From: a virus
DNA length: 41,690 nt
Virus record (IMG/VR): IMGVR_UViG_3300010343_000006
Coordinates: 1-41,690 of that record
Reading direction: 5' to 3' (one strand)
The translations under genes were made by a program, and so were the position numbers. Positions 2,270-24,431 of this stretch are shown here, piece by piece (position 1 is the first letter of the stretch; each line of letters begins with the position of its first letter). The notes beneath the pieces were generated by a model, which made no database searches, was not told the DNA's origin, and saw nothing but the letters and a program-made list of their open reading frames with translations.

Positions 2270-2368
2270 GGTTTCCCCTAACGTCGTTTCAGGGTGCATC
2301 CGGAGAAGGTTTGGCGGCACACTTCCGTCACGCACCGACTGGCCAACCGGGTGCCTAAATAGGTCGGC
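2270..2368 (+). repeat. leader element copy A (diverged repeat of 24314-24409)
   Basis: It opens with GGTTTCCCCTAACGT (2270-2284) and closes with a 36-nt block (2333-2368) holding CACCGACT, GCCAACC and CTAAATAGGTCGGC. Copy B at 24314 has the same two blocks, separated by 45 rather than 48 bases, and a weakly conserved middle including GGCACA. GGCAC in the middle can pair with GTGCC in the closing block. In copy B the partner is GTGTC, which keeps pairing through a G-U. CCGAC can alternatively pair with GTCGG. An AGGAGG ribosome site and ATG follow within 20 bases. It behaves like a 5' leader or regulatory RNA; I cannot match it to a known family. Confidence 0.6.
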
Positions 2369-2383
2369 CCAACAGGAGGATTT

Positions 2384-2548
2384 ATGAAATTCGGAATGTT
2401 CGTCCTACGCTCAGCCGTCATTTGCATGATGGTGCTCATCGTCGCTCATTGCGAGATGAATGCCTGTGCCCCGGCAATTGTCGCCACAGACATTGGCGAT
2501 CATCGGGAAACGATCATGCAGTACGCACTGCAATGCACGAAAAGGTAA
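2384..2548 (+). CDS. small secreted or membrane protein, 54 aa (moron-like)
   Basis: ATG at 2384 follows AGGAGG at ideal spacing. N-terminus MKFGMFVLRSAVICMMVLIVA is a basic-then-hydrophobic segment, either a signal sequence or a membrane anchor. The remainder holds four cysteines overall and ends CTKR. It forms a two-gene rightward unit with the next lipoprotein gene (4-base gap) inside the leftward structural operon, between scaffold and capsid. This placement on the opposite strand with its own leader is typical of accessory 'moron' units. Function unknown; it may alter the host envelope. Confidence 0.6.
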   Translation: MKFGMFVLRSAVICMMVLIVAHCEMNACAPAIVATDIGDHRETIMQYALQCTKR

Positions 2549-2552
2549 ACCT

Positions 2553-2729
2553 ATGAAAATCGCTTTGCTTTCGCTTCTTTTATCTGGCTGTGCGATCTGT
2601 CAGAATCACCCCGTCGCTTGTATGGCGGGAAGTGCTTTTGTCGCAGGATCGATTGCCGTGAGCCTCAATCACCAGGATAGGCGCGAGACTCCAGAAGTCC
2701 GCCGATCACACCTCAATGATCAGTTATAA
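2553..2729 (+). CDS. small predicted lipoprotein, 58 aa (moron-like)
   Basis: I chose the ATG at 2553 (AAAGGT five bases upstream) over a longer upstream frame because it gives a signal peptide with a lipobox: MKIALLSLLLSGC, Cys at residue 13. A second hydrophobic segment (CMAGSAFVAGSIAVSL) follows, then a charged tail with RRETPEVRRSH. Similar small lipoproteins occur scattered in proteobacterial phages, but I cannot give a function. A spanin-like or envelope-modifying role is possible; the position far from the lysis genes argues against a spanin. Confidence 0.65.
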   Translation: MKIALLSLLLSGCAICQNHPVACMAGSAFVAGSIAVSLNHQDRRETPEVRRSHLNDQL

Positions 2730-2839
2730 GCCTTTCAGAACCCGATTAGGCTGTCTGGTCGAACGCAAGTTCACCTTGGCCCAAAACGGTGCTATTCATG
2801 AGCATGTGAGCCTTTCGGGGCCAGAGGTTCTTTTAGGGC
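2730..2839. other. intergenic between convergent genes
   Basis: This stretch separates the rightward lipoprotein gene from the leftward scaffold gene. I looked for a bidirectional terminator and found only weak GC-rich complementarity (GGGGCC around 2817-2823 and GGGCC around 2837-2841) without a clear U-run. Nothing else is supported. Confidence 0.3.
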
Positions 2840-3751
2840 CTAGTGAGCGTTTCCGTTTGCAATCCGCTCCACCAACGCATCCCGGCGTGCGATCTCCGTA
2901 GGATTGTTCCAGACGTGATTCGATATCTTGCCTGCGGTCCGATCCGCCATGATCTGATCCCATTCGGCCTGTGCAGCAGAAGCACCACCTTCAAAGCCTT
3001 TCGCAGGGCCACCACCTGCAAATGAAGGTTCTTTATTGCCCTCGCCAAACTTCCACATCAGCGACATGAACTTAGCCGTCCCTAGAACAGACTCCATGGT
3101 GCGCAGTTGCATGTCACTGAGGCCCCCCACTTCCTTGGCCAGCCAGTCCTTACCGCGAGCTCCCAATGCAATGCGCTCCTTGTAGTTCGAGCCCCATTCC
3201 ATCTCGAGCTGCTTTAGATCTTGAGCGCTCTTCGCATCCTCGGCCGCGCGAAGCTCGGTCTCAAGCTTCACCACCGCTGATTCATAACCATTCGCCAGCA
3301 CCTTGGCCATACCCGGAGGGGCACCGGCTTGATGTAGTACGTCCTTCAAGTAATTGGTGAACTGAGGGTAGAGAGATCCCTCAGGCGGCTTGATGTCATA
3401 CAGTTCCGCCTTCTCGGGAACTCCCATGGCGGTGCGCCAGGCCTTGACCGCATTGTCATCGGCCTTCTTGAAAGTCCCATCCGGGTTTCGCGTGTCCTCA
3501 GGGTATGCTTTGACGCTGACCGCAGTTCTTAAGGAGGCGGCTTCTTTTTCGAGGCCTTGTGCTGTTTTCGCCAACACGAAAGGATCCGCATATTTCTTGT
3601 TAGCAATCCAGTCACGGGTTTCTCTCTGTTCTGGGGCGGTCCAGGTTGACCAGAAGCCCTCGTTTGCAGCGGGAGTGGTCGTTGTGGTGCTTGCAGTATC
3701 GGTTGCTGCGGCTGCGGTGCCGGCCAATGCCTGTGCTGCGGGAGTACTCAT
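2840..3751 (-). CDS. scaffolding-like protein, 303 aa
   Basis: Highly polar and Ala/Lys/Glu-rich with long predicted helices (KLETELRAAEDAKSAQDLKQLEMEW). It has an Ala/Thr-rich disordered N-terminus and a basic C-terminus (NPTEIARRDALVERIANG). Length, composition and the place between portal-side genes and the capsid gene match podoviral scaffolding proteins, which template capsid assembly and leave before packaging. The motif EKAELYDIKPPEG resembles scaffold proteins of related podophages. The start overlaps the previous stop (ATGA). Confidence 0.75.
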   Translation of the reverse strand: MSTPAAQALAGTAAAATDTASTTTTTPAANEGFWSTWTAPEQRETRDWIANKKYADPFVLAKTAQGLEKEAASLRTAVSVKAYPEDTRNPDGTFKKADDNAVKAWRTAMGVPEKAELYDIKPPEGSLYPQFTNYLKDVLHQAGAPPGMAKVLANGYESAVVKLETELRAAEDAKSAQDLKQLEMEWGSNYKERIALGARGKDWLAKEVGGLSDMQLRTMESVLGTAKFMSLMWKFGEGNKEPSFAGGGPAKGFEGGASAAQAEWDQIMADRTAGKISNHVWNNPTEIARRDALVERIANGNAH

Positions 3752-4029
3752 GCGTCTTCCTTGTAAGCGATTTGAAGGTTGATGTAGGCGAGAACGTCGA
3801 AATGACCCAAGTCGCGCCAGGTTCTAAGGGCATCTGTGCGACCTTGAGCATCCAATACATTGTCGGCAAATACGCCGATGGTCTGGAATTTGATGTTCAA
3901 TACCTGAAGTACTGATTTACCCAGAGGGGTTGAGAATAGTTCTCGGAACTGTCGAGCTTGGTCACGCAGGACAGACAACCGCTTTGCTTGGGTTATCTCG
4001 TTTTCCTGTTCGACTGTGTACTCTGCCAT
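3748..4029 (-). CDS. conserved small protein, 93 aa, unknown
   Basis: MAEYTVEQENEITQAKRLSVLRDQARQF begins an amphipathic helix, followed by TPLGKSVLQVLNIKFQTI and WRDLGHFDVLAYINLQI. No signal or membrane segment. Its stop overlaps the scaffold start by four bases, so its expression is coupled to the scaffold. A head-assembly accessory role is inferred only from position. Confidence 0.65.
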   Translation of the reverse strand: MAEYTVEQENEITQAKRLSVLRDQARQFRELFSTPLGKSVLQVLNIKFQTIGVFADNVLDAQGRTDALRTWRDLGHFDVLAYINLQIAYKEDA

Positions 4030-4034
4030 GAGCC

Positions 4035-5834
4035 CTAAAGACTAGCCCCTAAGAGCATGATGAGCAAGACCGTTTCGTCAATAGCAGGAACTGCCGTTGC
4101 AGGCTCCGCACTCTCGTTAGAAAGCACAGGTGACCCTAGCTCAGCAGCGGCAATCCCTGGTAGGAGTATCTCACTCGACCCCATGAAAGGCGAGGGCACA
4201 ATCGGGGCACCTGTGGCTTGCCATGGGTATTTGTACCCACGTTCAAGCTCTATGGCGGTCTTCGGAGGCCCGACATTGACACCTGGCAGCAAAGCAGCGG
4301 TGGGCTGAACGATGATGGCAGGAGGCGTAATCGGCGGTTCAAGATCACCACTTCCAATGGTGACGCTGATGCCCGATCCAGACAGCACCGCGGTGGCTGT
4401 GAGGTTTCCAGAGCCAACAGTTGGGCTAATCCCGGAGCCTGAAATCCCGCCCGAATTAAATGGCTCAAGATCCCCTGAGCCGATAGTGACTGAGATCCCA
4501 GATCCCGCCAGAGTCGCGGTGCCTAGAAGATTCGCAGCCCCCACCGTGACGGATAAACCAGATCCAGCTAAAGCCGCTAAGCCGGTCAGACTGCCGGCGC
4601 CGATCGTGGGACTGCCTCCAAACCCTGCTAGCAGCGGCTGTAACCCCCCAGCCCCGATGGTCACGGAAACACCAGAGCCAGAAAGGGCCGCAGTTCCGGT
4701 TAATGCACCCGCTCCGATGACCGCCGATAGTCCAGATCCGGATAGGGTTACAGCCCCAGTCAGCGCCGCCGCGCCGATCGTTGTACTAATGCCAGAGCCC
4801 GAAATAGCTCCCGAGGTCTGCGGTTGAAGATTCCCGGTCCCTGTGCTGGCTGAAATGCCAGAACCCGCTAATGCCCCGCTTCCGGTGAGTGCTCCAGCAC
4901 CCGCGGTAACACTGATTCCCGATCCTGCCGCAGCCGCATTACCGGTAAGGGCACCGGATCCTGCGGTAGTGCTAACCCCTGATCCTGCGGCCCCAGCAGT
5001 CCCGGTCAAAGCCCCCGAGCCAAGGGTGGCGCTGATTCCAGAGCCGGAAACGGCCAAGCTTGCGGTCAGATTTCCAGCCCCGATGGTCGTACACAGACCA
5101 GAGCCCGACATCGCGAGCGTTCCAGCCAATGCCGCAGCACCAATTGAGGCCGAGATACCAGATCCGGATAACGGTCCAGCCCCACTTGAGGTGGTATCGC
5201 CATAAACGCCTCGCAGCCGACTTCTCGGCGTCCCTAGTCGCAGCGAGCGCCCTCGAGGGGTGAAAAAGGGGGAATCCCCACCCCCCGGCGTCAATCCTAA
5301 GGCCAAGGCCTGGACCGTGATATTTGAGCCGGTCGTTAAGGCCCAGGTGACGGTGAGTGTCTGGCCGGCAGAATTGGCCGCATAGTCAATGATGACCGTG
5401 CCATCTCCGGCCACCGCACCAGAGGTAAATCCCCCATAGGACTGAGGACTTGCCGAACTATCGCTTAACGAAGCACTGACGAGGGTGGAGGATACCGCGA
5501 ACATCCCCAAATACAGGTATGCCCGCCTTACCGTCGTATCCGCATGAAAAGTCGCCGTAAAGCCGTGCGAACTTCCCGTCACCGTATCGAAAATACCTCC
5601 TGTATTAGAGCCGCTTCCCGTCGGCGTGCCATTGGTCCAAGAGATGGTCCGAGGATCGTTACCGTATGACGCGACCGAGTCGGGAGAGGCTAAAGAAATA
5701 TAGCCAGGAGTCCCGCTTAGGGTGTTGTTCGGAGTAAGCGTGGTGCCGTTATAGGTCGCCCAATCGGTCGTCCCGACGGTGGTCAAATTGACCGCAGTCG
5801 CGGTCGCATTGGTCGAAAGAATCAGAATGCCCAT
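4035..5834 (-). CDS. repeat-rich virion fibre-like protein, 599 aa
   Basis: Residues 1-185 form a beta-rich N-terminal domain (HADTTVRRAYLYLGMF, VIIDYAANSAGQTLTVTWAL). Residues about 223-508 are about 14 tandem copies of a 20-residue unit of the form (S/A)GSG(I/V/L)SxTxGxGxLxGxxxL. A few units end LQP or LEP and carry one or two extra residues. A C-terminal tail rich in Pro/Ala follows. The regular Ser/Gly/Thr repeat suggests an extended beta-structured or fibrous shaft, perhaps a head fibre or decoration. It sits with other fibre-like genes between portal and scaffold. Confidence 0.7.
   Translation of the reverse strand: MGILILSTNATATAVNLTTVGTTDWATYNGTTLTPNNTLSGTPGYISLASPDSVASYGNDPRTISWTNGTPTGSGSNTGGIFDTVTGSSHGFTATFHADTTVRRAYLYLGMFAVSSTLVSASLSDSSASPQSYGGFTSGAVAGDGTVIIDYAANSAGQTLTVTWALTTGSNITVQALALGLTPGGGDSPFFTPRGRSLRLGTPRSRLRGVYGDTTSSGAGPLSGSGISASIGAAALAGTLAMSGSGLCTTIGAGNLTASLAVSGSGISATLGSGALTGTAGAAGSGVSTTAGSGALTGNAAAAGSGISVTAGAGALTGSGALAGSGISASTGTGNLQPQTSGAISGSGISTTIGAAALTGAVTLSGSGLSAVIGAGALTGTAALSGSGVSVTIGAGGLQPLLAGFGGSPTIGAGSLTGLAALAGSGLSVTVGAANLLGTATLAGSGISVTIGSGDLEPFNSGGISGSGISPTVGSGNLTATAVLSGSGISVTIGSGDLEPPITPPAIIVQPTAALLPGVNVGPPKTAIELERGYKYPWQATGAPIVPSPFMGSSEILLPGIAAAELGSPVLSNESAEPATAVPAIDETVLLIMLLGASL
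4313..5168 (-). repeat. tandem 60-bp (20-aa) repeats inside the 599-aa gene
   Basis: The DNA encodes successive SGSGISxTIGxGALTG-type units every 60 bases, with one degenerate unit (GFGGSPTIGAGSLTG). Codon usage differs between units, so the array is old and not a recent slippage product. Unit boundaries marked by LQP/LEP divide the array into sub-blocks. Confidence 0.75.
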
Positions 5835-5867
5835 TTAGAGCCTCTGATTAGACGATTAGCCACATCC

Positions 5868-6470
5868 CTAAAATCCTGTGGCTGTGAGCAAACTGATATT
5901 CAATTGCTGCAGCTGACAAGAGCCGGTAGCGACCGTTTGGGTGAAGTCGAGATCCAGAAGATTTGATACCGTGGTATTGAAGGTGGCCGACGCTGTAATG
6001 ACGTTGGAAGCTCCGGTGGCGGTTCCGCTATAAGGAACTCGAGTGCCTCCAGGACCAGGACCCGTGGCTTGCAAGGGCGTCGCGACCATATCCTCCGATA
6101 GCCACTCACCATCCCACACCCAAGAGGAAGTCACTCCGACCGCAGTGCATGTGGCTAAAATGCTGAGCCGCCAAAGAACGCTCGTACGGGCGGCAGCGGT
6201 CACCAATGGCATTGCCTGAGTATCGAAGAAAGCCGTGCCACCCACGTTGAAATCGAATCTAGCCGTACCCGGCGTAGTTATCACCGAGGATATGATCCCC
6301 CTGGCATCGATCAGCATCTGATCGCCAATGGTCTTGATGGCATTGCCGGGCAATGTAAATCTGGCGGCAGTCGATTGACCGCCCTGAGTCATGCTGGCCC
6401 GCGCAGCGGCAGTCAATGCCGTGCCGGGAGTATTTAAGGTAACCAGTGTCTGCCAGAAGCCCTGTGCCAT
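5868..6470 (-). CDS. virion-associated beta protein, 200 aa
   Basis: Sequence is Thr/Ala/Val-rich with alternating beta pattern (ARFTLPGNAIKTIGDQMLIDARGIISSV, TARFDFNVGGTAFFDTQ). A central VWDGEWLSED stretch precedes a TATGASNVITASATFNTTVSNLLDLDFTQTV strand region. The plan of leading P-x-N..I..G..L.I.A.G is shared with the next protein (6472-7023), so the two are probably paralogues. Likely a jelly-roll-like fibre or decoration subunit. A 33-base gap separates it from the repeat protein. Confidence 0.6.
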   Translation of the reverse strand: MAQGFWQTLVTLNTPGTALTAAARASMTQGGQSTAARFTLPGNAIKTIGDQMLIDARGIISSVITTPGTARFDFNVGGTAFFDTQAMPLVTAAARTSVLWRLSILATCTAVGVTSSWVWDGEWLSEDMVATPLQATGPGPGGTRVPYSGTATGASNVITASATFNTTVSNLLDLDFTQTVATGSCQLQQLNISLLTATGF

Positions 6471-6471
6471 T

Positions 6472-7023
6472 TTAAGGTCCGTCCACCAGTACGTGTATAA
6501 GGCGAGCTTGAATTGAGTTAGCAGCCGCTGCTGTCGTCCATTGGGCCGTCAAAACCACATCATTCGATGCGATCGTAGACATCGAAATGGTGGAAATATT
6601 AGACATGGACGCTGCGCTCACGGATAAAAGACCTGCCGTGACGCTCAAAAATCCCTGAGATTCCATGGTGCCTGAGGAACCCGTGCTTTGAATCACGCAG
6701 GTCAGATCGGCATTCCAGGCTTGCTGAGAGAGGGAAGACGCCAAAGTAATCGCGCCCGAACTCGCCAACACAGTGCCGCTGATTCCGCCCCATCTGCTCT
6801 GAATGGTCAGACCCAGATTCAAAAGCCCAGTGCTGACTATTCCCCACGCCTTCATGCGAATGAGAGTCGGCGCGAGAGTGTAGCGGTTCGGTTGCGAGGG
6901 GTAAGTGAAAATCTGATCGAATACAGTCTCGGTTGCCGTATTGGTGATAGCCGTCGATGGGGACGAATTGACGTATCTTAAAGGCAGATTGCTGCTGTTT
7001 GACAGTGAAATCAATGCGGTCAC
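6472..7023 (-). CDS. virion-associated beta protein, 183 aa, paralogue of its neighbour
   Basis: GTG start at 7023, with AGGATG about nine bases upstream. It has the layout of the 200-aa protein: TPSQPNRYTLAP-type strand, IRMKAWGIVSTGLLNLGLTIQSRWGG, a long Ser/Ala/Thr strand region, and a final VVLTAQWTTAAAANSIQARLI resembling LLDLDFTQTVATGSCQLQQL. The gene is adjacent to its paralogue with one base between stop and start, indicating duplication followed by divergence. Probable surface fibre or decoration subunit; no enzymatic motif. Confidence 0.6.
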   Translation of the reverse strand: MTALISLSNSSNLPLRYVNSSPSTAITNTATETVFDQIFTYPSQPNRYTLAPTLIRMKAWGIVSTGLLNLGLTIQSRWGGISGTVLASSGAITLASSLSQQAWNADLTCVIQSTGSSGTMESQGFLSVTAGLLSVSAASMSNISTISMSTIASNDVVLTAQWTTAAAANSIQARLIHVLVDGP

Positions 7024-7029
7024 GGGTGT

Positions 7030-7755
7030 TCATCCTTTTTGGAACCCCAACTGCCCGATAGCGAAAGAAGGAGTGACCAAATTTGAAACCACCAGCGGGC
7101 CCTGCTTACAGATCACCCCTGACCCCGTGGTCGAGGTGGTGACTGGAGCGCCATTCGCGGTGGTCGTTGAGAGGGTCAGCGTTTGCCCGCCAGGGGCGGT
7201 GCCGACGAAGTAGACAGTGCCTTCCGTTAAACCGGTGGGCAATCCTTCCTGTCCGGGAAGTTGATACACCGACACTCGGTCATTGACCGTGGGGGTATAC
7301 CCATAAACTGTCAGCACGCCAGGGGCGGCGGCGGTGCAAGTAAAGGGCACATCAGGGCCCGCCACAGGCCCGATAGGACCTGAATCAAGCAATGTGCCAG
7401 CACCGGAAGCGGCGAGCCCAATGCCCCAATGAGTGATCGTATCCCCTGTAGCACCACAGGCAGGAAAGGTGATCGCTGCGGCATTCGACACACTGGAGAA
7501 AGTCGTGCCGGAACCCAGAGCCGTGGTCCAGCCTGCAGTTGTTCTTGCAGTGCTCACTCTGGCGTAATTGGTGTAAATACTCTCGTTGGTGGTCTGAGAG
7601 CCGCCATTCAAGGGGTCTGCATTGTGCAGCGAGACGTATAGAACGGTGGCGGGGGTCGTAGTCGCATTAATAGCAATCGTCGCCCACGTACCTGTGAAAA
7701 CCGCGCAGAACAGTGCGTCTAGTTCCGCTTTGGCTTGGATGAATGTCTGGATCAT
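7030..7755 (-). CDS. conserved phage structural protein, 241 aa
   Basis: Carries the run TPATVLYVSLHNADP followed by Q-T-x-N-E-x-x-Y-x-x-Y-A-R-V, then ITFPACGATGDTITHWGIGL, a pattern shared by many phage tail-fibre-accessory or head-proximal proteins. The C-terminal half is an Ig/beta module (LTVYGYTPTVNDRVSVYQLPG, TEGTVYFV, LTLSTTTANGAPV). Located four genes after the portal. It is probably a virion surface protein; its exact role is unknown. Confidence 0.65.
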   Translation of the reverse strand: MIQTFIQAKAELDALFCAVFTGTWATIAINATTTPATVLYVSLHNADPLNGGSQTTNESIYTNYARVSTARTTAGWTTALGSGTTFSSVSNAAAITFPACGATGDTITHWGIGLAASGAGTLLDSGPIGPVAGPDVPFTCTAAAPGVLTVYGYTPTVNDRVSVYQLPGQEGLPTGLTEGTVYFVGTAPGGQTLTLSTTTANGAPVTTSTTGSGVICKQGPLVVSNLVTPSFAIGQLGFQKG

Positions 7756-7757
7756 CG

Positions 7758-8096
7758 CTAGTTCCTCGTCTCGTTGACCGTCATCGTTACACGACCGGAC
7801 GGCAATTGCGCGCTAATCTCACGCACCGTAGGTTTACACAAAGACTCACACAGCTCTTTCATCGCGGCCCGCAGCTCCAAATTAGATTGGATCACCTCCC
7901 GATCGAGTGCGATGTCTTCAGCCTGGCGGGTTTTGATCGTCTCCAGTTCCGCCTTGATCTGAGCCAACGTCACCGCGGCAGCTCCTGCAGCAATCCCCGC
8001 AATGCCCTCGGTCGTCGGCATACCCGCGATCTTTCGCTCCATCTCATTGATGAGCCAGTGTGCTTCAGCATCGATTGGCTTTTTGGCTTCAGCCAT
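7758..8096 (-). CDS. small helical protein, 112 aa, unknown
   Basis: Predicted helices and a likely coiled coil at residues about 45-85 (QIKAELETIKTRQAEDIALDREVIQSNLELRAAMKELCESLC). The C-terminus is short and beta-like (SGRVTMTVNETRN). Its start lies 8 bases inside the preceding gene. It could be an oligomeric linker or fibre-attachment protein between the flanking structural genes; no known family recognised. Confidence 0.55.
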   Translation of the reverse strand: MAEAKKPIDAEAHWLINEMERKIAGMPTTEGIAGIAAGAAAVTLAQIKAELETIKTRQAEDIALDREVIQSNLELRAAMKELCESLCKPTVREISAQLPSGRVTMTVNETRN

Positions 8097-8493
8097 CGGG
8101 ACTACCGGTATTAGGATAGGGAAAGGGCCGCTTCATCGGGGTGGTCAGCATGATCGAGAAGGGATTAGGCGTCACAGTGACTGCAGGCGTTCGGGCTACC
8201 TCAATTCCACCGACCACAGCAGTCACATAAAAGGCGTAAGTGTTCGCTGGCGTCACCGTCCCAACAGGCGGCATATTCTGTGGACGCAGGCTGTTTCCGC
8301 TCGAGGCGGCAATGGTGCTATTGGAGTAAGTCGTCTGCGTCAATCCCGAGACAGTCGCAGAACGAATGGTGACGCTTTGTACCTCAACCCCATTCTGATA
8401 GACGTTGTAACTCGCCGGAGTGATACCAGGAAAGGTGCCCCACTCCAAAGCGAAAGAACCGTTCAGATTGTCGTAAATGTCGATTCTAGGCAC
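8089..8493 (-). CDS. fibronectin-III-like virion protein, 134 aa
   Basis: I chose GTG at 8493 (AGGAGC upstream, overlapping the portal stop) over the longer frame to 8538, which would run 53 bases into the portal gene. The sequence GSFALEWGTFPGITPASYNVYQNGVEV, SGLTQTTYSNSTI and ANTYAFYVTAVVGGIEVARTPAVTVTP matches the strand pattern of a fibronectin type III domain. Such domains are common as add-ons on phage head and tail proteins. It follows the portal directly. Confidence 0.6.
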   Translation of the reverse strand: MPRIDIYDNLNGSFALEWGTFPGITPASYNVYQNGVEVQSVTIRSATVSGLTQTTYSNSTIAASSGNSLRPQNMPPVGTVTPANTYAFYVTAVVGGIEVARTPAVTVTPNPFSIMLTTPMKRPFPYPNTGSPDG

Positions 8494-10669: not shown

Positions 10670-10715
10670 AACGCCCGACTGTGCGGGAAACGAGCGGCAC
10701 AATCAATTACATCTC

Positions 10716-14892: not shown

Positions 14893-15071
14893 GGATGCGC
14901 AGCTCTATGCTGTTCTGCATCATTCTTAGCTCCCGAAAGGCTGGTGGAGCGGCCGATTCGCTTGAACACCTGAGCTTGTTTGAACCATATTGAGTAATCG
15001 TAGGTTTCCCGGCGAATGGTATACCATCCTGACTCGTGGACGCCGATGGCCAGATGTTCGCTCCACGTCAC
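14889..15071 (-). CDS. hypothetical protein, 60 aa
   Basis: GTG start at 15071 overlaps the TGA of the preceding 52-aa gene, with CAGGGGAG from the repeated junction sequence acting as the ribosome site. Reads MTWSEHLAIGVHESGWYTIRR then a polar basic tail. No family recognised. Confidence 0.55.
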   Translation of the reverse strand: MTWSEHLAIGVHESGWYTIRRETYDYSIWFKQAQVFKRIGRSTSLSGAKNDAEQHRAAHP

Positions 15072-15226
15072 GGCTTCTCCCCTGGGGGCGCAAAATCGGC
15101 TAGAATTCCTAAGTCCCAGCCCTCTCCCGTGCCAGGATGAGGAAGTACGCGATCCAGTGGCTCATCAGCGATCGCCGAGATATGTCGGGTTACCGATCTG
15201 GGACAACATTCAATCGTGGTAATCAC
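15068..15226 (-). CDS. small cysteine-containing protein, 52 aa
   Basis: GTG at 15226 overlaps the preceding TGA. The frame reads MITTIECCPRSVTRHISAIADE and ends LADFAPPGEKP. The APPGEK tail is encoded by the repeated junction sequence that also holds the next gene's ribosome site. The overlap at both ends supports it, but the product is unknown. Confidence 0.5.
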   Translation of the reverse strand: MITTIECCPRSVTRHISAIADEPLDRVLPHPGTGEGWDLGILADFAPPGEKP

Positions 15227-15429
15227 GTCGCCTTCCCTCGGGGCGCATTATTTCGAATAGCCATACCTCGCCCAATGTCCATGCAAATATCAGCCGCTTG
15301 AGCAAAACTATCGAGCGGCAACATCAAATAAAGGCCGTTATCAATGGGACCTTTCGTGAGGGGCTCCAAATCCCAGAAAGGGCCTCGTTTATACGCGCGA
15401 ATGGTCACTAAAGGCCGATCATCGCTCAT
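15223..15429 (-). CDS. hypothetical protein, 68 aa
   Basis: ATG at 15429 is preceded by GGGGAGGAGG within the junction repeat. Sequence MSDDRPLVTIRAYKRGPFWDLEPLT then LYLMLPLDSFAQAADICMDIGRGMAI suggests a small alpha/beta protein. It ends NAPRGKAT, a degenerate form of the APPGE tail found on its neighbours. Unknown function. Confidence 0.55.
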   Translation of the reverse strand: MSDDRPLVTIRAYKRGPFWDLEPLTKGPIDNGLYLMLPLDSFAQAADICMDIGRGMAIRNNAPRGKAT

Positions 15430-15641
15430 ACCTCCTCCCCTGGGGGCGCAACATATCCAAAACGCTTGTATCGCAAATATTCTTTCGTGAAGTAGTCACC
15501 GCTTTTAGATGGGTGAGATTGGACCGAGCGCTGCTGCGGCGTTAGCTTGCTACGGCGCTTACGAATGGTTTGAGAATGCGTAGTGCGGCCCACCCACTGC
15601 TGCGGAATCTCGATTTCCTTGCCTCTGCGAATCCGTTTCAT
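15426..15641 (-). CDS. small basic protein, 71 aa
   Basis: I chose ATG at 15641 (GGGGAGGGAAA just upstream, ATGA overlap with the previous stop) over a longer upstream frame. Very basic: MKRIRRGKEIEIPQQWVGRTT, IRKRRSKLTPQQRS, YLRYKRFGYVAPPGEEV. Could bind nucleic acid. The C-terminal APPGEEV is encoded by the junction repeat. Confidence 0.55.
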   Translation of the reverse strand: MKRIRRGKEIEIPQQWVGRTTHSQTIRKRRSKLTPQQRSVQSHPSKSGDYFTKEYLRYKRFGYVAPPGEEV

Positions 15642-16109: not shown

Positions 16110-16111
16110 AG

Positions 16112-17489: not shown

Positions 17490-17497
17490 TTCGCTCC

Positions 17498-17854: not shown

Positions 17855-17864
17855 TCATCGCTCC

Positions 17865-18295: not shown

Positions 18296-18584
18296 TTTCA
18301 TCCTCCATGTCGTAGCCAATGGCTTTGCGCGCAGCTAAAACAGTCTGCGGTGAGATCTGGTAAACTCGGTACTTGTCCTTGTGATGACGCTGGGCTAAAT
18401 CTTCGCCCATGTCATTTAGTAATTCGCGCAATGCCACAGCCCATTCGAGCGCGGCCCGATATTTTGCGCACAATACATCGTAGTCAGAGGCCCTCACTAA
18501 CTGTTCCTGAGGCGCGAATTGCTCACCATCGTCCGGGCTACACCAGCCACCCTCATTCTCATCCCATTGAAAGCGCTTAACCAC
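18267..18584 (-). CDS. hypothetical protein, 105 aa
   Basis: GTG at 18584, two bases into the end of the preceding gene. Reads MVKRFQWDENEGGWCSPDDGEQFAP, LVRASDYDVLCAKYRAALEWAVALREL and SPQTVLAARKAIGY. The opening Y/FxWDExEGG-W with a later ASDYDVLxAKY is common in small proteins of phage early regions. No enzymatic motif. Unknown. Confidence 0.6.
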   Translation of the reverse strand: MVKRFQWDENEGGWCSPDDGEQFAPQEQLVRASDYDVLCAKYRAALEWAVALRELLNDMGEDLAQRHHKDKYRVYQISPQTVLAARKAIGYDMEDENAPTQARLP

Positions 18585-18747
18585 GGCACTCTCCCGCCCT
18601 CTCTACCTCTACCCCTGTCGCACCCCGATAGCGGGTATACGGATGAGCATCGCCGGGGGAACGGATGATCTTTTGCATGGGGCAGTTCTGGCAACGATAG
18701 CGCTTAACGTGAAAGTCGAAATTCTGCAAGCGCCAGACGTGTTTCAT
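18577..18747 (-). CDS. small CxxC protein, 56 aa
   Basis: ATG at 18747 overlaps the TGA of the preceding gene. Reads MKHVWRLQNFDFHVKRYRCQNC, with CxxC at residues 19-22, then a basic stretch. Possibly half of a metal-binding site or a dimerising zinc finger. Filled a previously empty 160-base stretch. Confidence 0.55.
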   Translation of the reverse strand: MKHVWRLQNFDFHVKRYRCQNCPMQKIIRSPGDAHPYTRYRGATGVEVERAGECRG

Positions 18748-19073
18748 GCGCGAGCAGCCAAAGATTTGATCTTAAAGCGCAGCCAACTATTGACCTTCCG
18801 CCATCGGGTCCCTGGTAATGCTCTGGGACCGACAGAATCATTTACCGCCGCTACCTCGTCGATCAATGCCGTATGTAGCGTCACGCCAGGATGATCTTCC
18901 CAAAAAGCCCCTATGGCGCAGTATTCGCCATGACCATTCCTTAGCTGACCATAAAGTAAGCCAGCGCGCTTCTGGACGGAATCACGAATGAGCCACAATG
19001 CCGTATCGTCCGGCATTGCCTCTTTGTTGGAACTGCTGCATCCGTGCGGACGCAACTTACTATTGCTTGCCAT
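18744..19073 (-). CDS. conserved phage protein, 109 aa
   Basis: ATG at 19073 with CAGGAGG at ideal spacing. Sequence PDDTALWLIRDSVQKRAGLLYGQL, GEYCAIGAFWEDHPGVTLHTALIDEVAAVNDSV and RWRKVNSWLRFKI. The CAIGxFW...ALIDEVAAVNDS core recurs in phage early genes; no function is known to me. Confidence 0.65.
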   Translation of the reverse strand: MASNSKLRPHGCSSSNKEAMPDDTALWLIRDSVQKRAGLLYGQLRNGHGEYCAIGAFWEDHPGVTLHTALIDEVAAVNDSVGPRALPGTRWRKVNSWLRFKIKSLAARA

Positions 19074-19203
19074 ACAATCCTCCTGTTTTTACCTGCGCGA
19101 GCAGGCTATAGAAATACTGCGCCAGCAACCCGCATGGGAGCTGCGAGACATCGAAGTCCAGCACGTTCTCACGAGCCATTGCTTTTAGCGCCTCTACGTC
19201 CAT
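19060..19203 (-). CDS. small protein, 47 aa
   Basis: ATG at 19203 inside the 3' end of the Cro-like gene (35-base overlap), stop at 19060 inside the next gene. Reads MDVEALKAMARENVLDFDVSQLP and CGLLAQYFYSLLAQVK. Predicted helical. The frame supplies the ribosome site of the following gene in its last codons. Confidence 0.45.
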   Translation of the reverse strand: MDVEALKAMARENVLDFDVSQLPCGLLAQYFYSLLAQVKTGGLYGKQ

Positions 19204-19360
19204 TGACTTTCAACCTTTCTCCAATCCCGAAAGCCCAGCCATCCGGCAGTTTCTTGAACCTCAGCCAGTTATTGAGCCGCTGTCGGCTGATTCCTAGCTG
19301 CCTTGCAACATCCGCCTGGGATGTAGCATCGATCGCTGCCTGCAAGACTTTCATTGACAT
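19169..19360 (-). CDS. Cro/YdaS-like helix-turn-helix regulator, 63 aa
   Basis: First gene of the leftward arm. HTH at residues 14-35 (SQADVARQLGISRQRLNNWLRF), short and basic as in Cro and YdaS proteins, followed by KLPDGWAFGIGERL. Start ATG 19360 lies six bases from the predicted -10 box, implying a leaderless mRNA, and no ribosome site is visible. Probably binds the intergenic operators and controls both arms. No partner repressor is seen in the window. Confidence 0.75.
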   Translation of the reverse strand: MSMKVLQAAIDATSQADVARQLGISRQRLNNWLRFKKLPDGWAFGIGERLKVNGRRGAKSNGS

Positions 19361-19463
19361 AGTGCCATTCTATAGCAAAAATATTGTACGTCAAGGGACT
19401 TGTACTTTGTAAAAGTTCGTGTATGCTGTCGTTTACGGTCGATCAACACAACGGAGAGAGACG
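19361..19463. promoter_or_regulatory. divergent promoter/operator region
   Basis: Rightward: -35 TTGTAC 19400-19405, 16-bp spacer, -10 TATGCT 19422-19427, then GGAGAGAG before ATG 19464. Leftward: -35 TTGACG (complement of 19389-19394), 16-bp spacer, -10 TAGAAT (complement of 19367-19372), transcription start near 19360. TTGTAC recurs 16 bp apart (19384-19389, 19400-19405), and CAAG-GGA-CTTG (19392-19402) is an inverted repeat, all overlapping the two -35 boxes. These are candidate operators for the Cro-like protein. Confidence 0.65.
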
Positions 19464-19838
19464 ATGAATGCACAATTGAAAACACAGATACCGTACACTC
19501 CAGGGCCGTGGCGGGTCGGGCATCATACGCAGATGTCAGTATCAATCCGCGTATTCGACAATGACAAAGCAACGCGCGGTGCAATTGCTCAAGCTTTCGC
19601 AGAAGGGATGAGCCACGATCAACTCGACGAATGTGAAGCCAATGCTCGCCTTATCGCCGCTGCTCCCGCCTTACTTGAGGCATTGAGAGAATGTGTGGCG
19701 GCTTATGTCGATGTGGATCACGCAAATACGTATACATCGGATGACGTTCTTTCAGTGGTTAAAGCAAATGAACGCATCCGTACATCTGTGACTGCGGCTC
19801 GCGAAATCATTGCTAAAGCCGTATTTGAGATCCGCTAG
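19464..19838 (+). CDS. conserved early phage protein, 124 aa
   Basis: First rightward gene; ATG at 19464 with GGAGAG. TPGPWRVGHH near the N-terminus and CEANARLIAAAPALLEALREC in the middle identify a small family widespread in phage early regions. Function unknown. A C-terminal helix RTSVTAAREIIAKAV follows. Confidence 0.8.
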   Translation: MNAQLKTQIPYTPGPWRVGHHTQMSVSIRVFDNDKATRGAIAQAFAEGMSHDQLDECEANARLIAAAPALLEALRECVAAYVDVDHANTYTSDDVLSVVKANERIRTSVTAAREIIAKAVFEIR

Positions 19839-19841
19839 GCA

Positions 19842-19934
19842 ATGCGCGACCTTCTCAAACACGACTGGCCAGTGCTTTTGTCGCTCGCCATCATCATCGC
19901 CACGCTGGCAGGGGAGATTATCTATGGACGCTGA
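19842..19934 (+). CDS. small transmembrane peptide, 30 aa
   Basis: ATG at 19842. Reads MRDLLKHDWPVLLSLAIIIATLAGEIIYGR: basic start, one hydrophobic helix, short polar end. Weak ribosome site. Supported by its membrane-helix composition and position four bases after the preceding stop; a chance frame is possible. Confidence 0.45.
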   Translation: MRDLLKHDWPVLLSLAIIIATLAGEIIYGR

Positions 19935-19952
19935 TGCGAAGGAAGCAGCCAA

Positions 19953-20555
19953 ATGAAACGTGAGCCGACCGAACAGAGTTTTCTGAAGGACGTCGCCAAG
20001 CATGAGATCAAGATCCGCAAAGACGAAGGTGTCTATCGGCACATGACTTTTGCTCGACCCGGCACGAACTGTTACCGCTTCGATCTGGTCACATGGCCCG
20101 GCTACTTGGCGTTTTCGGGCGACATGGGTTGCTACGTTTTCAGCCGCATCCCGGACATGTTTGAGTTTTTCCGCTCCGACAAGGAAGGGCTGCACATAAA
20201 TCTCGGTTATTGGGGCGAGAAGGTCGAGGCACGGGATCGCGACGGCGTCAGAGAATACAGCGCAGAGCGCTTTATTGAACACGTCCAGCGCCATCTGGAT
20301 GATAGGGAGGCTTCTGACCGCGACAGGCGAGCCGCCAAGTACGAAGTGATGGACAAGGCTCACGACAACCAGCATGAGGCCTACTCGGCTGCAATGAGCT
20401 TCAAAGGGCCGGACGGAACGAAGTTCGCAGACTTCTGGGAGTGCAACTCGGACGAGTACACCTATCGCTTTGTCTGGTGCTGCTACGCGCTGTCGTGGGG
20501 AATTCGGCAGTACGACGAAGCATGCTCCCCTGCACAAAGAACGGATGCACCATGA
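19953..20555 (+). CDS. conserved early phage protein, 200 aa
   Basis: Recognisable stretch ARPGTNCYRFDLVTWPGYLAFSGDMGCYVFSRIPDMFEFFR, conserved across many phages of proteobacteria; role unknown to me. It is mixed alpha/beta with a charged middle (HVQRHLDDREASDRDRRAAKYEV), and FVWCCYALSWGIRQYDEAC near the end. The start overlaps no gene; the stop overlaps the next ATG. Confidence 0.75.
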   Translation: MKREPTEQSFLKDVAKHEIKIRKDEGVYRHMTFARPGTNCYRFDLVTWPGYLAFSGDMGCYVFSRIPDMFEFFRSDKEGLHINLGYWGEKVEARDRDGVREYSAERFIEHVQRHLDDREASDRDRRAAKYEVMDKAHDNQHEAYSAAMSFKGPDGTKFADFWECNSDEYTYRFVWCCYALSWGIRQYDEACSPAQRTDAP

Positions 20556-20698
20556 CCGCTAACTGCGATTGTTGTGACGAGCGCCCCGGTACCCACACCA
20601 TTATCGTATGCCAGATTGAAACCTGGATCTGCGATAACTGCTCGGATGATGAGGAAGAGTTGGACAAAGCTGATATATCCAAAGGAGAACAACCGTGA
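20552..20698 (+). CDS. small double-CxxC protein, 48 aa
   Basis: ATG 20552 overlaps the previous TGA. CDCC near residue 5-8 and CDNC at about 27-30 could bind one zinc. The acidic tail DDEEELDKADISKGEQ is strikingly like the tail of the protein at 21137-21343, suggesting shared ancestry or a common partner. Confidence 0.65.
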   Translation: MTANCDCCDERPGTHTIIVCQIETWICDNCSDDEEELDKADISKGEQP

Positions 20699-21111
20699 CA
20701 ATGACTGCTGACGAAGCGAAAGAATTCTACGGCGCGGACGCAGCCGAATGGCTCAAGCGCTGGGACACTGGCCAAGGTGTATGGAGCATCGAGATGGGCG
20801 GACTTGGCCCAGGCTACGAGCAGTGCATTCAGATCACCACGGCCGAGCTTCTGCGCCATCTTCTCACCAATACCGTTGCAATCCCCAAGGAGGGCGACAA
20901 GAAAGGCTGGGAGAAGGTCAGCGATGAGTTGCGCGAGGCGATGTTCAAGGTACCGACGATCTCGGCGCTGGGACTCTCTGGCGCGCAATACGGGGCTGCT
21001 TACAACCTGGCGTGGCACCTCTACCGACGCGGGCCGGCCGTGTGCTTCATGGACAAGGAAGTGCAGGATCGCAAGATCCAAGTTCGCAAACATTTCCCGC
21101 GAGCGGCTTAA
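20695..21111 (+). CDS. hypothetical protein, 138 aa
   Basis: GTG 20695 is preferred to ATG 20701 because AAAGGAGA sits seven bases before GTG and the start overlaps TGA. Contains ADEAKEFYGADAAEWLKRWDTGQGVWSIEMGGLGPGYEQCIQITTAELLRHLL, then LGLSGAQYGAAYNLAWHLYRRGP. Globular; family not recognised. Confidence 0.7.
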   Translation: MTMTADEAKEFYGADAAEWLKRWDTGQGVWSIEMGGLGPGYEQCIQITTAELLRHLLTNTVAIPKEGDKKGWEKVSDELREAMFKVPTISALGLSGAQYGAAYNLAWHLYRRGPAVCFMDKEVQDRKIQVRKHFPRAA

Positions 21112-21136
21112 CGTCTAATCCAGGAGGAAATGTGCC

Positions 21137-21343
21137 ATGACCAACAAAGACCTGCCGATCAATGACACATGGTGCGAGGGTTGCGGCTTCGAGGAATGTC
21201 GTTGCGAATCGCTCTGCAATGGCTGCGAGACACCCACAGTTTGTCTGGACAAAGGCTGTGGTAAGAGTCAGCGCGAGTACTCAGGAAGAGACGACGAAGA
21301 GGAACTTGACGCTGCTGATACTTCAGAAGGACCGCAATCATGA
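21137..21343 (+). CDS. cysteine-rich small protein, 68 aa
   Basis: AGGAGG then ATG 21137. Nine cysteines in the first half (CEGCGFEECRCESLCNGCE, CLDKGC), probably two zinc sites, then an acidic tail DDEEELDAADTSEGPQ shared with the 48-aa protein. The ribosome site lies in an 18-base sequence repeated at 21818-21835. Confidence 0.65.
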   Translation: MTNKDLPINDTWCEGCGFEECRCESLCNGCETPTVCLDKGCGKSQREYSGRDDEEELDAADTSEGPQS

Positions 21344-21648
21344 ATATATTTCTCAGCGGGTATAATTGGCAGCCCGGCATGGATGGATCGTTGTTCGGCT
21401 GGTCAATGGGAGAAGTGGTTAACTTCAAGGCTCCATCCTCCGGCAAAGAATATGAGGTGCGCATCGATTCTGATTTGATGTCGCATACCGATTCCCCGTC
21501 AGGCAAATGCTACGAGTGCATATTCCTCGACGGCTCCGGGCGCTGGGCATTGGACCCGACTTATTTTTCTCCGAGCGGTGCTCGATTATCGAAGATCAAT
21601 TCTGGTCGCTCAGAACTTGGCTTACAAAATACATCCGGAGAGAAGTAA
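21340..21648 (+). CDS. hypothetical protein, 102 aa
   Basis: ATG 21340 overlaps the previous stop. Beta-rich (LFGWSMGEVVNFKAPSSGKEYEVRIDSDLM, KCYECIFLDGSGRWALDPTYF). Cys pair CYEC. Looks globular and soluble. No family recognised. Confidence 0.6.
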   Translation: MNIFLSGYNWQPGMDGSLFGWSMGEVVNFKAPSSGKEYEVRIDSDLMSHTDSPSGKCYECIFLDGSGRWALDPTYFSPSGARLSKINSGRSELGLQNTSGEK

Positions 21649-21833
21649 TGGAGGAAGTGCCGTTCAAGCCATGCCCGTTCTGCGGCTCCGATCACTGCAC
21701 CGTGATGAGCGGCTGGGTCGAATGCCTTATCTGCGGCTGTCGCGGCCCGCATGGCAAGGAACCTGTTGATCGACTGAGGGCTTGGTCGATTCGTAACGCG
21801 CCACAGAATAATCCAAAAGGAAATGTGCCATGA
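21648..21833 (+). CDS. Lar-like restriction-alleviation zinc-ribbon protein, 61 aa
   Basis: ATG 21648 (TAATG). FKPCPFCGSDHCTVMSGWVECLICGCRGP gives CxxC...CxxC, the Lar-family signature, and DRLRAWSIR fits the A-x-x-x-W-N part. Lar proteins relieve host type I restriction; a role in evading restriction is inferred from family. Its stop overlaps the next start. Confidence 0.75.
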   Translation: MEEVPFKPCPFCGSDHCTVMSGWVECLICGCRGPHGKEPVDRLRAWSIRNAPQNNPKGNVP

Positions 21834-21961
21834 CCGCACCTGATGGACCGGAAGAACGTACGGCTGAGGCTGACGAACTTGACGCAGATCGCGAAGACGC
21901 CGCTGATCTCGCCCTAGAGCGCGCTGAAGATCAGATGCTGGACCCGGAATATTGGTACTAG
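21830..21961 (+). CDS. small acidic protein, 43 aa
   Basis: ATG 21830, with AGGAAATGTGCC upstream. Reads MTAPDGPEERTAEADELDADREDAA then LALERAEDQMLDPEYWY. Highly acidic and likely helical. Acidic mimics of DNA occur among anti-restriction proteins, but nothing more supports that here. Confidence 0.5.
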   Translation: MTAPDGPEERTAEADELDADREDAADLALERAEDQMLDPEYWY

Positions 21962-21969
21962 GAGTGACA

Positions 21970-22155
21970 ATGGCGAAAACTAGCGCGGAATTATTGGAGC
22001 AGGCTCGAAGCATTGCAAACCATCCTTTCTCGACTGCCGAGAATCGCAGCACAGCCATTCAAGTAGCCTACGATCTAGGCTTTGCTGATGGCAAGCTCGA
22101 AGGCGGCAAACAGATGGGCGAGGATTTGACTCAAGCTTTGGCGAAAGTCTCATGA
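21970..22155 (+). CDS. hypothetical protein, 61 aa
   Basis: AGGAG before ATG 21970. MAKTSAELLEQARSIANHPFSTAENRSTAIQVAYDLGFADGKLEGG: two helices and a GFADGK turn. Soluble, unknown. Confidence 0.55.
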   Translation: MAKTSAELLEQARSIANHPFSTAENRSTAIQVAYDLGFADGKLEGGKQMGEDLTQALAKVS

Positions 22156-22328
22156 CCTTCTCCACCGGTATGGCCTGGGTGATGGTGGGGCTAATATTTT
22201 GCTGCGTGCTGATCGTGCTGGTGGCGGGCTTGAGGCCGAACAAGCGCGATTGGAAGAAGTTCGAGAGGCCGGTGCCTGACTCGCGATGCTCTATCTCGGC
22301 GTTCAATCGGATCAGAGATCAGCGATGA
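22152..22328 (+). CDS. small membrane protein, 58 aa
   Basis: ATG 22152 overlaps the previous TGA. MTFSTGMAWVMVGLIFCCVLIVLVAGL is one transmembrane helix, followed by a basic tail RPNKRDWKKFERP, N-out/C-in by the positive-inside rule. Overlaps the next ATG. Unknown role. Confidence 0.6.
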   Translation: MTFSTGMAWVMVGLIFCCVLIVLVAGLRPNKRDWKKFERPVPDSRCSISAFNRIRDQR

Positions 22329-22600
22329 ACTGCAAACCGGGTGAGATGGCAATGGTAATCCGCGGCCGTCCAGAGAACATTGGAAAAGTGGTTACCGTTC
22401 TGCGCCTAGCTGATATGCGGATAAATCGTTTGGATGAAAAGGTGGGGCCATTCTGGGTTATTGATCGAGATCTCATGCATCAATGGGAATTTAGCAAAAG
22501 ACTCACAATGCGGCCATTCTGCGCGGATTGCAAATTGATGCCTATACACCCACTTGATGATGAGACCATCCTGGAAACTACATCGCTGGAAATTCCATGA
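22325..22600 (+). CDS. conserved phage protein, 91 aa
   Basis: ATG 22325. MNCKPGEMAMVIRGRPENIGKVVTVLR is a recurring N-terminal motif (MNCKPGDLAxV) in small phage proteins, followed by FWVIDRDL and FCADCKLMPIHP. CADC could contribute to metal binding. Function not known. Confidence 0.65.
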   Translation: MNCKPGEMAMVIRGRPENIGKVVTVLRLADMRINRLDEKVGPFWVIDRDLMHQWEFSKRLTMRPFCADCKLMPIHPLDDETILETTSLEIP

Positions 22601-22797
22601 ACCCATCGCACACTGTTCGATTGCTGCAAGCGTCATGCGATCTGATCGAAAAGGACCAGCGCATCGCCGACTTAGAACGCCAAATCCTCTCGCTCAAGCG
22701 CCTCCTGGGACTGCGCAGATTGGCGGAGGACTTGAAAATGGACGAAATCAACGCCGCAGATAGCGATTGTGGCTTATTGAGGAGACAAACAGAATGA
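22597..22797 (+). CDS. coiled-coil small protein, 66 aa
   Basis: ATG 22597. MNPSHTVRLLQASCDLIEKDQRIADLERQILSLKRLLGLRRLAEDLKMDE is one long amphipathic helix. The last codons contain the GAGGAG ribosome site of ERF. Probably a coiled-coil partner. Confidence 0.55.
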   Translation: MNPSHTVRLLQASCDLIEKDQRIADLERQILSLKRLLGLRRLAEDLKMDEINAADSDCGLLRRQTE

Positions 22798-23573
22798 ACC
22801 GCAGCGAGAATATCACCGAATTGGTCACTGCTCTGGCCATTGCGCAAGGGCAGATCACCGGAGCTCTCAAGGACTCCGATAACCCGTTCTTCTCATCGAA
22901 GTATGCGGACCTCGCTTCCTGTTGGGATGTGGCCCGCAAACCTCTGTCAGAGAACGGTCTATCGGTCGTGCAAACGACGGAACGCGGCAAAGCGGTGACC
23001 ATCGAGTGGGAAACGAAGAACGAGAAAACCGGCGAAGTGACGGCCTACAAGGTCGATACCGAGGAACTGGTTGTGGTCACGACTCTGTTCCACTCCTCTG
23101 GTCAATGGATCTCGAGCGAACTTCCGATGATCCCTCGCGATGCCTCTCCGCAAGGCATGGGATCTGCTCTGACCTATGGAAGGCGTTATGGGCTGTGTCC
23201 GCTGATTGGGATTGCCCAGGTCGATGATGACGGTAACCAGGCTTCCGGCCGAAACCCTGGATTGAGCCAACCCCATAGCCCAAGGGGCGATTTGGGTAAA
23301 AGCGTTCCAGTCGATAAGGCCCGCGCGACAGCACTTGAGATGATTGCCATTATCTCGAAAGCCGCCGTTGACGGGGACCACGACGAACGGCAGAAAGCCC
23401 TCTCAGCCCTCGATTACCATGACCGGGTACTGGTGAAGGACGAGGATTTGTATGTGGCAGCTTCCGGTCAAATGGATGCTGCAAAGCGCAACGCCTGGAA
23501 AGCGCTCATTAGCTTGGCCCGCAATGCGCAGAAAGCAGATCGGGCGATTGACAACGCAGGACGCAAGTTTTGA
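22794..23573 (+). CDS. erf: ERF-family single-strand annealing protein, 259 aa
   Basis: ATG 22794 with GAGGAG. SSAP of the ERF type: LVTALAIAQGQITGALKDSDNPFFSSKYADL at the N-terminus and the hallmark PQGMGSALTYGRRYGLCPLIGIAQVDDDGNQA. It anneals homologous single strands and aids recombination, genome circularisation or end repair. The C-terminal third (residues 170-259) is helical and basic and may bind SSB or DNA. It is the only clear replication/recombination protein of the early arm. Confidence 0.92.
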   Translation: MNRSENITELVTALAIAQGQITGALKDSDNPFFSSKYADLASCWDVARKPLSENGLSVVQTTERGKAVTIEWETKNEKTGEVTAYKVDTEELVVVTTLFHSSGQWISSELPMIPRDASPQGMGSALTYGRRYGLCPLIGIAQVDDDGNQASGRNPGLSQPHSPRGDLGKSVPVDKARATALEMIAIISKAAVDGDHDERQKALSALDYHDRVLVKDEDLYVAASGQMDAAKRNAWKALISLARNAQKADRAIDNAGRKF

Positions 23574-23599
23574 TCGACGCCCTTAAAATGGAGGCAGCG

Positions 23600-23884
23600 A
23601 TGGATTTCCTAGCGGAGACTGATATCCGCTTTGCGGAGGCCAAAACGCGCCTTATGCAGACTGAAATCCTCTGCAAGCGTGTCAGAGCGCGGGTGTATAT
23701 CACCCAGGAAGGGGGCGTAGAGGCCCGCAAGGCCGCCGCAGAAGCCCACGGGGACGTGATCGACGCGGATAAGGACTACGTGGCGGCTACCTTGGATTTC
23801 GAGACCTTGAAGGCCCGTAGGAGCCGTGCGGAGATCGTGATTGATGTATGGCGTTCGATCGAGGCGAGCCGGAGGAAGGCGTGA
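23600..23884 (+). CDS. ERF-associated conserved protein, 94 aa
   Basis: Start at ATG 23600 is chosen for GGAGG five bases upstream; a TTG at 23570 overlapping the ERF stop is an alternative. MDFLAETDIRFAEAKTRLM..., GGVEARKAAAEAH and ALDFETLKARRSRAEIVIDVWRSIEASRRK match a small helical family encoded beside recombinases in phages. Likely works with ERF; biochemical role unknown. Confidence 0.75.
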   Translation: MDFLAETDIRFAEAKTRLMQTEILCKRVRARVYITQEGGVEARKAAAEAHGDVIDADKDYVAATLDFETLKARRSRAEIVIDVWRSIEASRRKA

Positions 23885-24198
23885 ACCTACGTAAGCTAGC
23901 CCGAGGCATGGACTGTACCATTAGGGTGCCCGAAGTATGTAACTCCAACCCCGAAACGACTGTCGGCTGTCACTATCGCCTAGCGGGGATGTGTGGGGTG
24001 AGCATGAAACCTGATGACCTTTTCTTAGCCTGGGGCTGTGATGCGTGTCATGCGGCGGTCGATGGACGGACCAAGACCAAGTACGCGCATAGCCTGTTGA
24101 GACTGTGGCACGCCGAAGGAGTGCTGAGGACTCAAGCGGAATTGCTGAAACGGGGTGTGATTTCAGTTCGAAAGGCCCCCACTCTTGGTGCGGGTTAA
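23881..24198 (+). CDS. YbcO/DUF1364-like HNH nuclease, 105 aa
   Basis: GTG 23881 overlaps the previous TGA. CTIRVPEVCNSNPETTVGCHYRLAG and WGCDACHAAVDGR give the DUF1364 signature: cysteines near 12, 20 and 30, His 31, CxxCH at 53-57. Family members are small metal-dependent nucleases in lambdoid early regions. Probably processes recombination intermediates. Last gene of the rightward early operon. Confidence 0.75.
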   Translation: MNLRKLARGMDCTIRVPEVCNSNPETTVGCHYRLAGMCGVSMKPDDLFLAWGCDACHAAVDGRTKTKYAHSLLRLWHAEGVLRTQAELLKRGVISVRKAPTLGAG

Positions 24199-24313
24199 TG
24201 AGATGCTGTCAGGTGGAAAAAGACTGTGAGTAAATGAATTAACCCAAAGGGGGCTACCCACTAGTTATGAATCCATAAATGGAACTGTGTGGACTAACGC
24301 CCCCATCTTTAAG
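24199..24313. other. intergenic region with a long imperfect stem
   Basis: AACCC-AAA-GGGGGC (24241-24254) can pair with GCCCCC-atc-TTT-aa-GGGTT (24299-24317). Inside the loop TTATG/CATAA forms another hairpin. It could be the terminator of the ERF operon or the upper part of the structured leader that follows. No U-run is seen after the stem. Confidence 0.45.
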
Positions 24314-24409
24314 GGTTTCCCCTAACGTATTTGCAGGTCGCAGAATGTTTGTCAGAGGCACATAGTTCTATCACACCGACTCGCCAACCAGGTGTCTAAA
24401 TAGGTCGGC
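24314..24409 (+). repeat. leader element copy B (diverged repeat of 2270-2368)
   Basis: GGTTTCCCCTAACGT at 24314-24328 is identical to copy A. The closing block 24374-24409 differs from copy A at three of 36 positions (G to C, G to A, C to T). The middle 45 bases share only CAGG, GCA, GTTTG and GGCACA. GGCAC here pairs with GTGTC. It lies 22 bases upstream of the ATG of a rightward gene, as copy A lies 15 upstream of its own. Confidence 0.6.
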
Positions 24410-24431
24410 GAAATAGAAAATGGAGAAGATT

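Follow-up and report, generated by a model that had tools for sequence, protein, structure and literature searches.

The window, that is, the whole stretch of viral DNA analysed (41,690 nt; IMG/VR record IMGVR_UViG_3300010343_000006), belongs to a phage with genes for a head-tail adaptor (phrog_332), a capsid protein (phrog_3437), and an Erf annealing protein. It carries two copies, A and B, of a conserved element on the plus strand (Table 1), and two real further copies, C and D, were recovered from other contigs by exact scans of IMG/VR, with queries taken from the 5' block, knot core, and 3' end. Each of the four is followed by a Shine-Dalgarno-like sequence and then a small ORF, with distances from the end of the unit to the ATG of 14 (A), 21 (B), 22 (C), and 37 nt (D). 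These first downstream genes encode 54 (A), 37 (B), 67 (C), and 74 aa (D), and belong to no common family. Elsewhere in the window, three successive, overlapping small genes on the minus strand (15068-15454) show GCGCCCC(C/G)AGGG(G/A)AG repeated around the stop and next start; near-identical 27-nt ribosome-site/start regions, TAATCCA(G/A)(G/A)AGGAAATGTGCCATGACC, precede two rightward genes (21116-21142 and 21809-21835, plus strand); and imperfect repeats (4411-5184) occur within a leftward gene of 599 aa (4035-5834) that has no PHROGs match.

Table 1. Positions of the element copies, their predicted stems, and the adjoining genes.
Feature	Position	Strand or contig	Basis or description
Copy A, whole conserved unit	2266..2369	+	Alignment A2 with B, C, and D; covariance model (CM) R1, 104.5 bits
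Copy A, 5' conserved block	2266..2296	+	21-25/31 identical to other copies
Copy A, predicted stem 1	2332-2336 with 2350-2354	+	GCACC with GGTGC; 100% paired, double changes at 2/5 pairs
Copy A, predicted stem 2	2341-2348 with 2362-2369	+	GGCCAACC with GGTCGGCC; 100% paired
Copy A, loop 3	2355-2361	+	CTAAATA
Shine-Dalgarno after copy A	2374..2379	+	AGGAGG; read directly
Gene A1	2384..2548	+	Protein of 54 aa with a hydrophobic N terminus, outside any known family
Gene A2	2553..2729	+	Lipoprotein-like protein of 58 aa with an LSGC lipobox
Copy B, whole conserved unit	24310..24410	+	Alignment with A, C, and D; CM R1, 109.3 bits
Copy B, 5' conserved block	24310..24340	+	29/31 identical to copy C
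Copy B, predicted stem 1	24373-24377 with 24391-24395	+	ACACC with GGTGT; pairing analysis
Copy B, predicted stem 2	24382-24389 with 24403-24410	+	CGCCAACC with GGTCGGCG; pairing analysis
Copy B, loop 3	24396-24402	+	CTAAATA
Shine-Dalgarno after copy B	24422..24425	+	GGAG; read directly
Gene B1	24432..24545	+	Basic peptide of 37 aa, outside any known family
Further small rightward genes after B	24542-24727, 24866-25099, 25096-25386	+	No family at cut-off
Copy C	3923-4026	L026 (31,267 nt)	Found by IMG/VR scan
Copy D	3759-3861	L037 (22,619 nt)	Found by IMG/VR scan

The unit has the same architecture in all four copies: a 31-nt 5' block, a spacer of about 33 nt, and a 41-nt 3' block. Identity is concentrated in alignment columns 1-31 and 65-104, the middle varies freely, and the 40-nt flanks agree at 7-13 of 40 positions, which is chance level. 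Copies had been placed at 2270-2368 and 24314-24409 by an earlier note on this DNA, and this was borne out, with the conserved unit extended by alignment to the limits in Table 1. The 36-nt closing block described there is identical at 33 of 36 positions (2333-2368 versus 24374-24409) and occurs in the window only at these sites, with no matches expected in shuffles; GGTTTCCCCTAACGT is exact at 2270 and 24314, and by itself is non-significant (0.83 matches expected at ≤3 mismatches). Distances to the first ATG (2384 and 24432) also agree, while GGCACA, said to be kept in the diverged middle, occurs in each copy at a different register of the alignment. The description of A and B as a duplication is doubtful, because B is nearer to C, in another phage (77/101 identical), than to A (65/101), with C and D sharing 76/103; judged by these identities, A and B would not be recent duplicates, and separate acquisition or old divergence fits better. 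There is good evidence that the element exists as a unit, both real and rare.

That rarity departs from the many hits upstream of diverse small phage genes that had been predicted: among 2.9 million contigs only two more carried the element, for a total of four copies in three phages. BLAST of 50,697 phage records and 72,556 plasmids, collections from which records very near the window may be absent, returned no real copy, and a strict pattern run over 84,980 species genomes gave 26 matches, all of them chance-like. Relaxing the pattern to leave stem 2 free added 30 matches, none with stem 2 complementarity, and a 23-nt match to the 5' block (L006) had no knot and corresponded, on the opposite strand, to a ribosome site. 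By sequence comparison, the phages carrying C and D are unrelated to the window phage, with no meaningful protein similarity: in tblastn of the window ORFs the C contig gave no match and the D contig two weak local ones. The C contig encodes a phrog_12 portal protein, and the D contig shows ejection-protein and tail-fibre matches. One open frame of the C contig (L026:2939-3511) combines an Erf-like N-terminal part with a Dam-type methyltransferase part.

Copy A lies in a small island located on the other strand from the late genes. Of three relatives of the window phage (G003, G005, and G006; portal proteins 65-74% identical), none has the island between the capsid gene and the adjacent gene, and homology with their capsid leaders runs to about 2265, ending where the element starts, which marks the left edge of the island. 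With its element, 54-aa protein, and 58-aa lipoprotein-like protein, the island has the look of a moron. The A2-type lipoprotein-like protein is a candidate lysogenic-conversion or superinfection-exclusion gene product, and a relative of gene A2 is found in G003 near 6164-6271, at another genome position, behind a sigma-70-like promoter. The leader of the major capsid gene (2093-2265, minus strand) is conserved in the same three relatives (GGCAAAGCC, AGAAGCGCCCCC, GGCCTTCGAG); inverted repeats occur in it, and it is possibly a further structured RNA, without Rfam match. A search of 47 portal-protein relatives of the window phage produced no convincing copy of the element, and CM matches in G026 and G029, which fell in gene-dense structural regions and had neither stem 1 nor loop 1, were judged to be chance.

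The 3' blocks of all four copies fit an H-type pseudoknot when pairing is analysed along the alignment. Stem 1 has 5 bp, in the form AGACC/GGTCT in C and D, and stem 2 has 8 bp (SGCCAACC/GGTCGGCS, with one A.C mismatch), those of C and D being identical to that of B. Loop 1 is GACT, a one-base linker follows, and loop 3 is CTAAATA or TAAAATA (A-rich, YWAAAUA). All 12 knot pairs are kept in every copy (48 cells, all paired; none broken), with double-sided changes at three of them, spread over both stems and including the closing pair of stem 2, which is G-C in A versus C-G in B, C, and D. The covariation score of the knot was 0.278 against 0.100 for shuffled alignments (5/500 shuffles), on a basis of four sequences, three pairs, and few events, most knot pairs being invariant. 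Sliding the pairing by one column, as a control, lowered it to 35-41%, and a scan of all column pairs of the 3' block found the same three covarying pairs plus a lone pair (21/26) outside any helix. If the 11 variable columns were placed randomly, three doubly variable pairs with no one-sided ones would have a probability of 5e-4, a guide only and not a formal test, as the structure was named after the sequences had been inspected. Altogether this provides fair evidence for a pseudoknot.

A possible alternative helix, CCGACT/GGTCGG, given as CCGAC/GTCGG in the earlier note and exclusive with the knot, is present and invariant in 4/4 copies. Single-helix energies are -5.4 to -7.7 kcal/mol for stem 1, -8.2 to -9.8 for stem 2, and -6.4 to -7.1 for this alternative helix; nested minimum free energy folds of the copies showed no energy advantage over shuffles (z about 0). 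The GGCAC/GTGYC helix drawn earlier from A and B alone did not survive the addition of C and D, since only 80% of its cells are paired, two of its five pairs are broken in half of the sequences, and it does not rise above shuffles. In the 5' block, the consensus fold includes a possible 4-bp hairpin, AGGG-NNNN-CCCU (2268-2279 in A, 24312-24323 in B), one pair of which is broken in copy A.

Known features do not account for the element. Across the whole window no Rfam 15 family matched at the gathering threshold, and the best sub-threshold match, to SAM_alpha, reached 10.1 bits against 36 and is not credible; the SAM-II riboswitch (RF00521; 10.1 bits, E 4-7) was rejected, with 29 model positions replaced by three bases. 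The copies do not share any open frame that has a start codon, and a leader peptide, RLAN(R/Q)VxK in one frame, was discarded, as copy C has no start codon for it and the conservation runs beyond its stop. Neither a sigma-70-like promoter nor an intrinsic terminator was detected on the element strand in any copy.

Weaker CM matches came from genome searches. In L358, L359, and L373 (genomes of 1.3-1.4 Mb), sequence adjoining an ECF-type sigma gene scored 27 bits and has an exact 8-bp stem 2 with loop TCAAATA; the 5' block is missing, stem 1 is weaker in L373, and the score is at noise level. An apparent coding region (L380) reached 26.6 bits without a stem 2, so chance attains that score, and because this match scored nearly as high, the sigma-gene region is an unproven lead as a possible relative of the element. 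Other matches from the R2 genome CM search (L360-L369), many of them without stem 1 or the loop 3 context, were judged by alignment to be chance. In L358, L359, L370-L373, and L376 the sigma-adjacent region spans about 100 nt with several inverted repeats and has no Rfam match, one conserved hairpin shows a compensatory change from CACCA/TGGTG to TGCCA/TGGCA, and a second knot might arise from GGTTATC/GATAACC.

The earlier proposal of a cis-acting element before unrelated accessory genes, probably RNA and outside Rfam, gained support from the two additional copies in unrelated phages and their compensatory changes. In the four sequences, a covarying structure occupies the predicted 5' UTR of diverse genes, as would be looked for in a cis-regulatory leader, and the element is probably a new candidate RNA of that known kind. 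Evidence for its function is weak. The reading favoured here, with somewhat better than even confidence, is that it forms an mRNA 5' leader whose RNA controls the following gene in cis, translation being the most likely level; we infer both its transcription and its translation-level control. The 3' part would fold as the H-type pseudoknot, with the 5' block, which may include a small hairpin, kept some 33 nt upstream of it by the spacer, and the leader would act on the gene starting 14-37 nt downstream. Bordering the initiating ribosome on its upstream side, the knot would set translation of the small accessory gene, either as the binding site of a factor from host or phage or by alternating with the invariant helix CCGACU:GGUCGG, with which it is mutually exclusive. 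Two points favour translation as the level of control: in all copies the knot is located at the ribosome-site edge or close to it, and the units downstream of A and D are too short to profit from antitermination. Between the knot and the Shine-Dalgarno there are from about 3 to as many as 23 nt, so that direct occlusion of the Shine-Dalgarno is unlikely and a bound factor, or a standby or roadblock effect, would be favoured. A bolder version, regarded as doubtful, is that the element is a portable two-state RNA module exchanged among unrelated phages as a ready-made accessory-gene leader, its knot and the competing CCGACU:GGUCGG helix acting as a switch to which a factor or small molecule shared by the hosts would respond, independent of phage lineage.

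Conservation of this kind might also reflect a DNA site, that is, a promoter or operator for a phage or host regulator carried with each unit, having the 5' block as its core and the 3' block as an accessory dyad. The 5' block could be such a site, as its 31 nt are of protein-site size and enclose a palindromic GGG-N4-CCC core, and every unit, or at any rate island A, would have to bring a promoter. Nevertheless, this is unlikely given the compensatory changes in both stems, where half-sites are not fixed, and the lack of a sigma-70 promoter at the copies; C and D are located inside rightward gene arrays, where a separate promoter is not required, and a ribosome-binding site always adjoins the element. 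A role in antitermination or anti-pausing, like that of HK022 put RNA, is quite improbable. A phage genome does have two related put RNAs, each of about 70 nt and located in leaders (PMC9378689), but these are pairs of stem-loops near the early promoters of long operons, whereas the unit behind the knot can be a single gene (D) or two tiny genes (A).

Slightly less probable again is a translational operator for a phage single-strand-binding (SSB) or annealing protein. The T4 gene 32 pseudoknot is likewise 5' of a translation start (PMC535899), the Erf annealing protein of the window phage is encoded upstream of B, and the C contig has an Erf-like segment (phrog_155, E 1e-8); however, the element does not stand before the Erf gene, a family search of the tested early genes of the D contig found no Erf, and the downstream genes specify unrelated small proteins without SSB or Erf match. 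Least probable of these is a small RNA gene or the end of a mobile element: although the element is a compact unit found in unrelated genomes, no terminator follows it, terminal repeats were not found, and it always has the same orientation and place with respect to start codons. If the preferred reading, a cis-acting RNA leader, is confirmed, a phage RNA family defined by a pseudoknot would be added, and phages would be seen to gain accessory genes together with a structured RNA leader and not only with a promoter. It would also mark small accessory genes, some of them membrane- or lipoprotein-like, for functional tests, and offer a compact test case for a knot at the ribosome-site edge setting expression.

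Several known systems resemble the element in part, but by the comparisons made it is a member of none; its genomic setting is most like that of manA/wcaG or SAS/ESAS. STAXI (RF01728) likewise places a pseudoknot near phage-type DNA-handling genes, but as tandem knot repeats listed for Enterobacteriales (PMC2864571), whereas here the knot is single at each locus and the STAXI CM found no match on A and B at E≤10. HK022 put also provides two related cis-acting leader RNAs per phage genome; these are adjacent stem-loops that bind RNA polymerase and lie just after early promoters (PMC9378689), in contrast to a knot at which no promoter was found. The SAS/ESAS sequences of cluster K mycobacteriophages are similarly repeated just upstream of unrelated non-structural gene starts, but consist of a 13-nt ribosome-site repeat, accompanied in some cases by 17-bp inverted repeats, in many copies within one cluster, and the text consulted reports no pseudoknot (PMC3203893); reading of the 14-37 nt after each copy of the element revealed no 13-nt GGGATAGGAGCCC-like SAS block. 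The manA and wcaG RNAs (RF01745, RF01761) are likewise candidate cis-regulatory structured RNAs before diverse phage accessory genes, but belong to marine T4-like cyanophages (PMC2864571), and the element described here is without Rfam match. Closest in presumed working is the gene 32 translational operator of T4 and RB69, a compact pseudoknot 5' of the translation initiation region in a phage intercistronic leader (PMC535899). It is a single site before an SSB gene, whereas the element precedes several unrelated small genes, has an extra 5' block, and shows no sequence similarity that was noticed, but the two have in common a knot upstream of a translation start.
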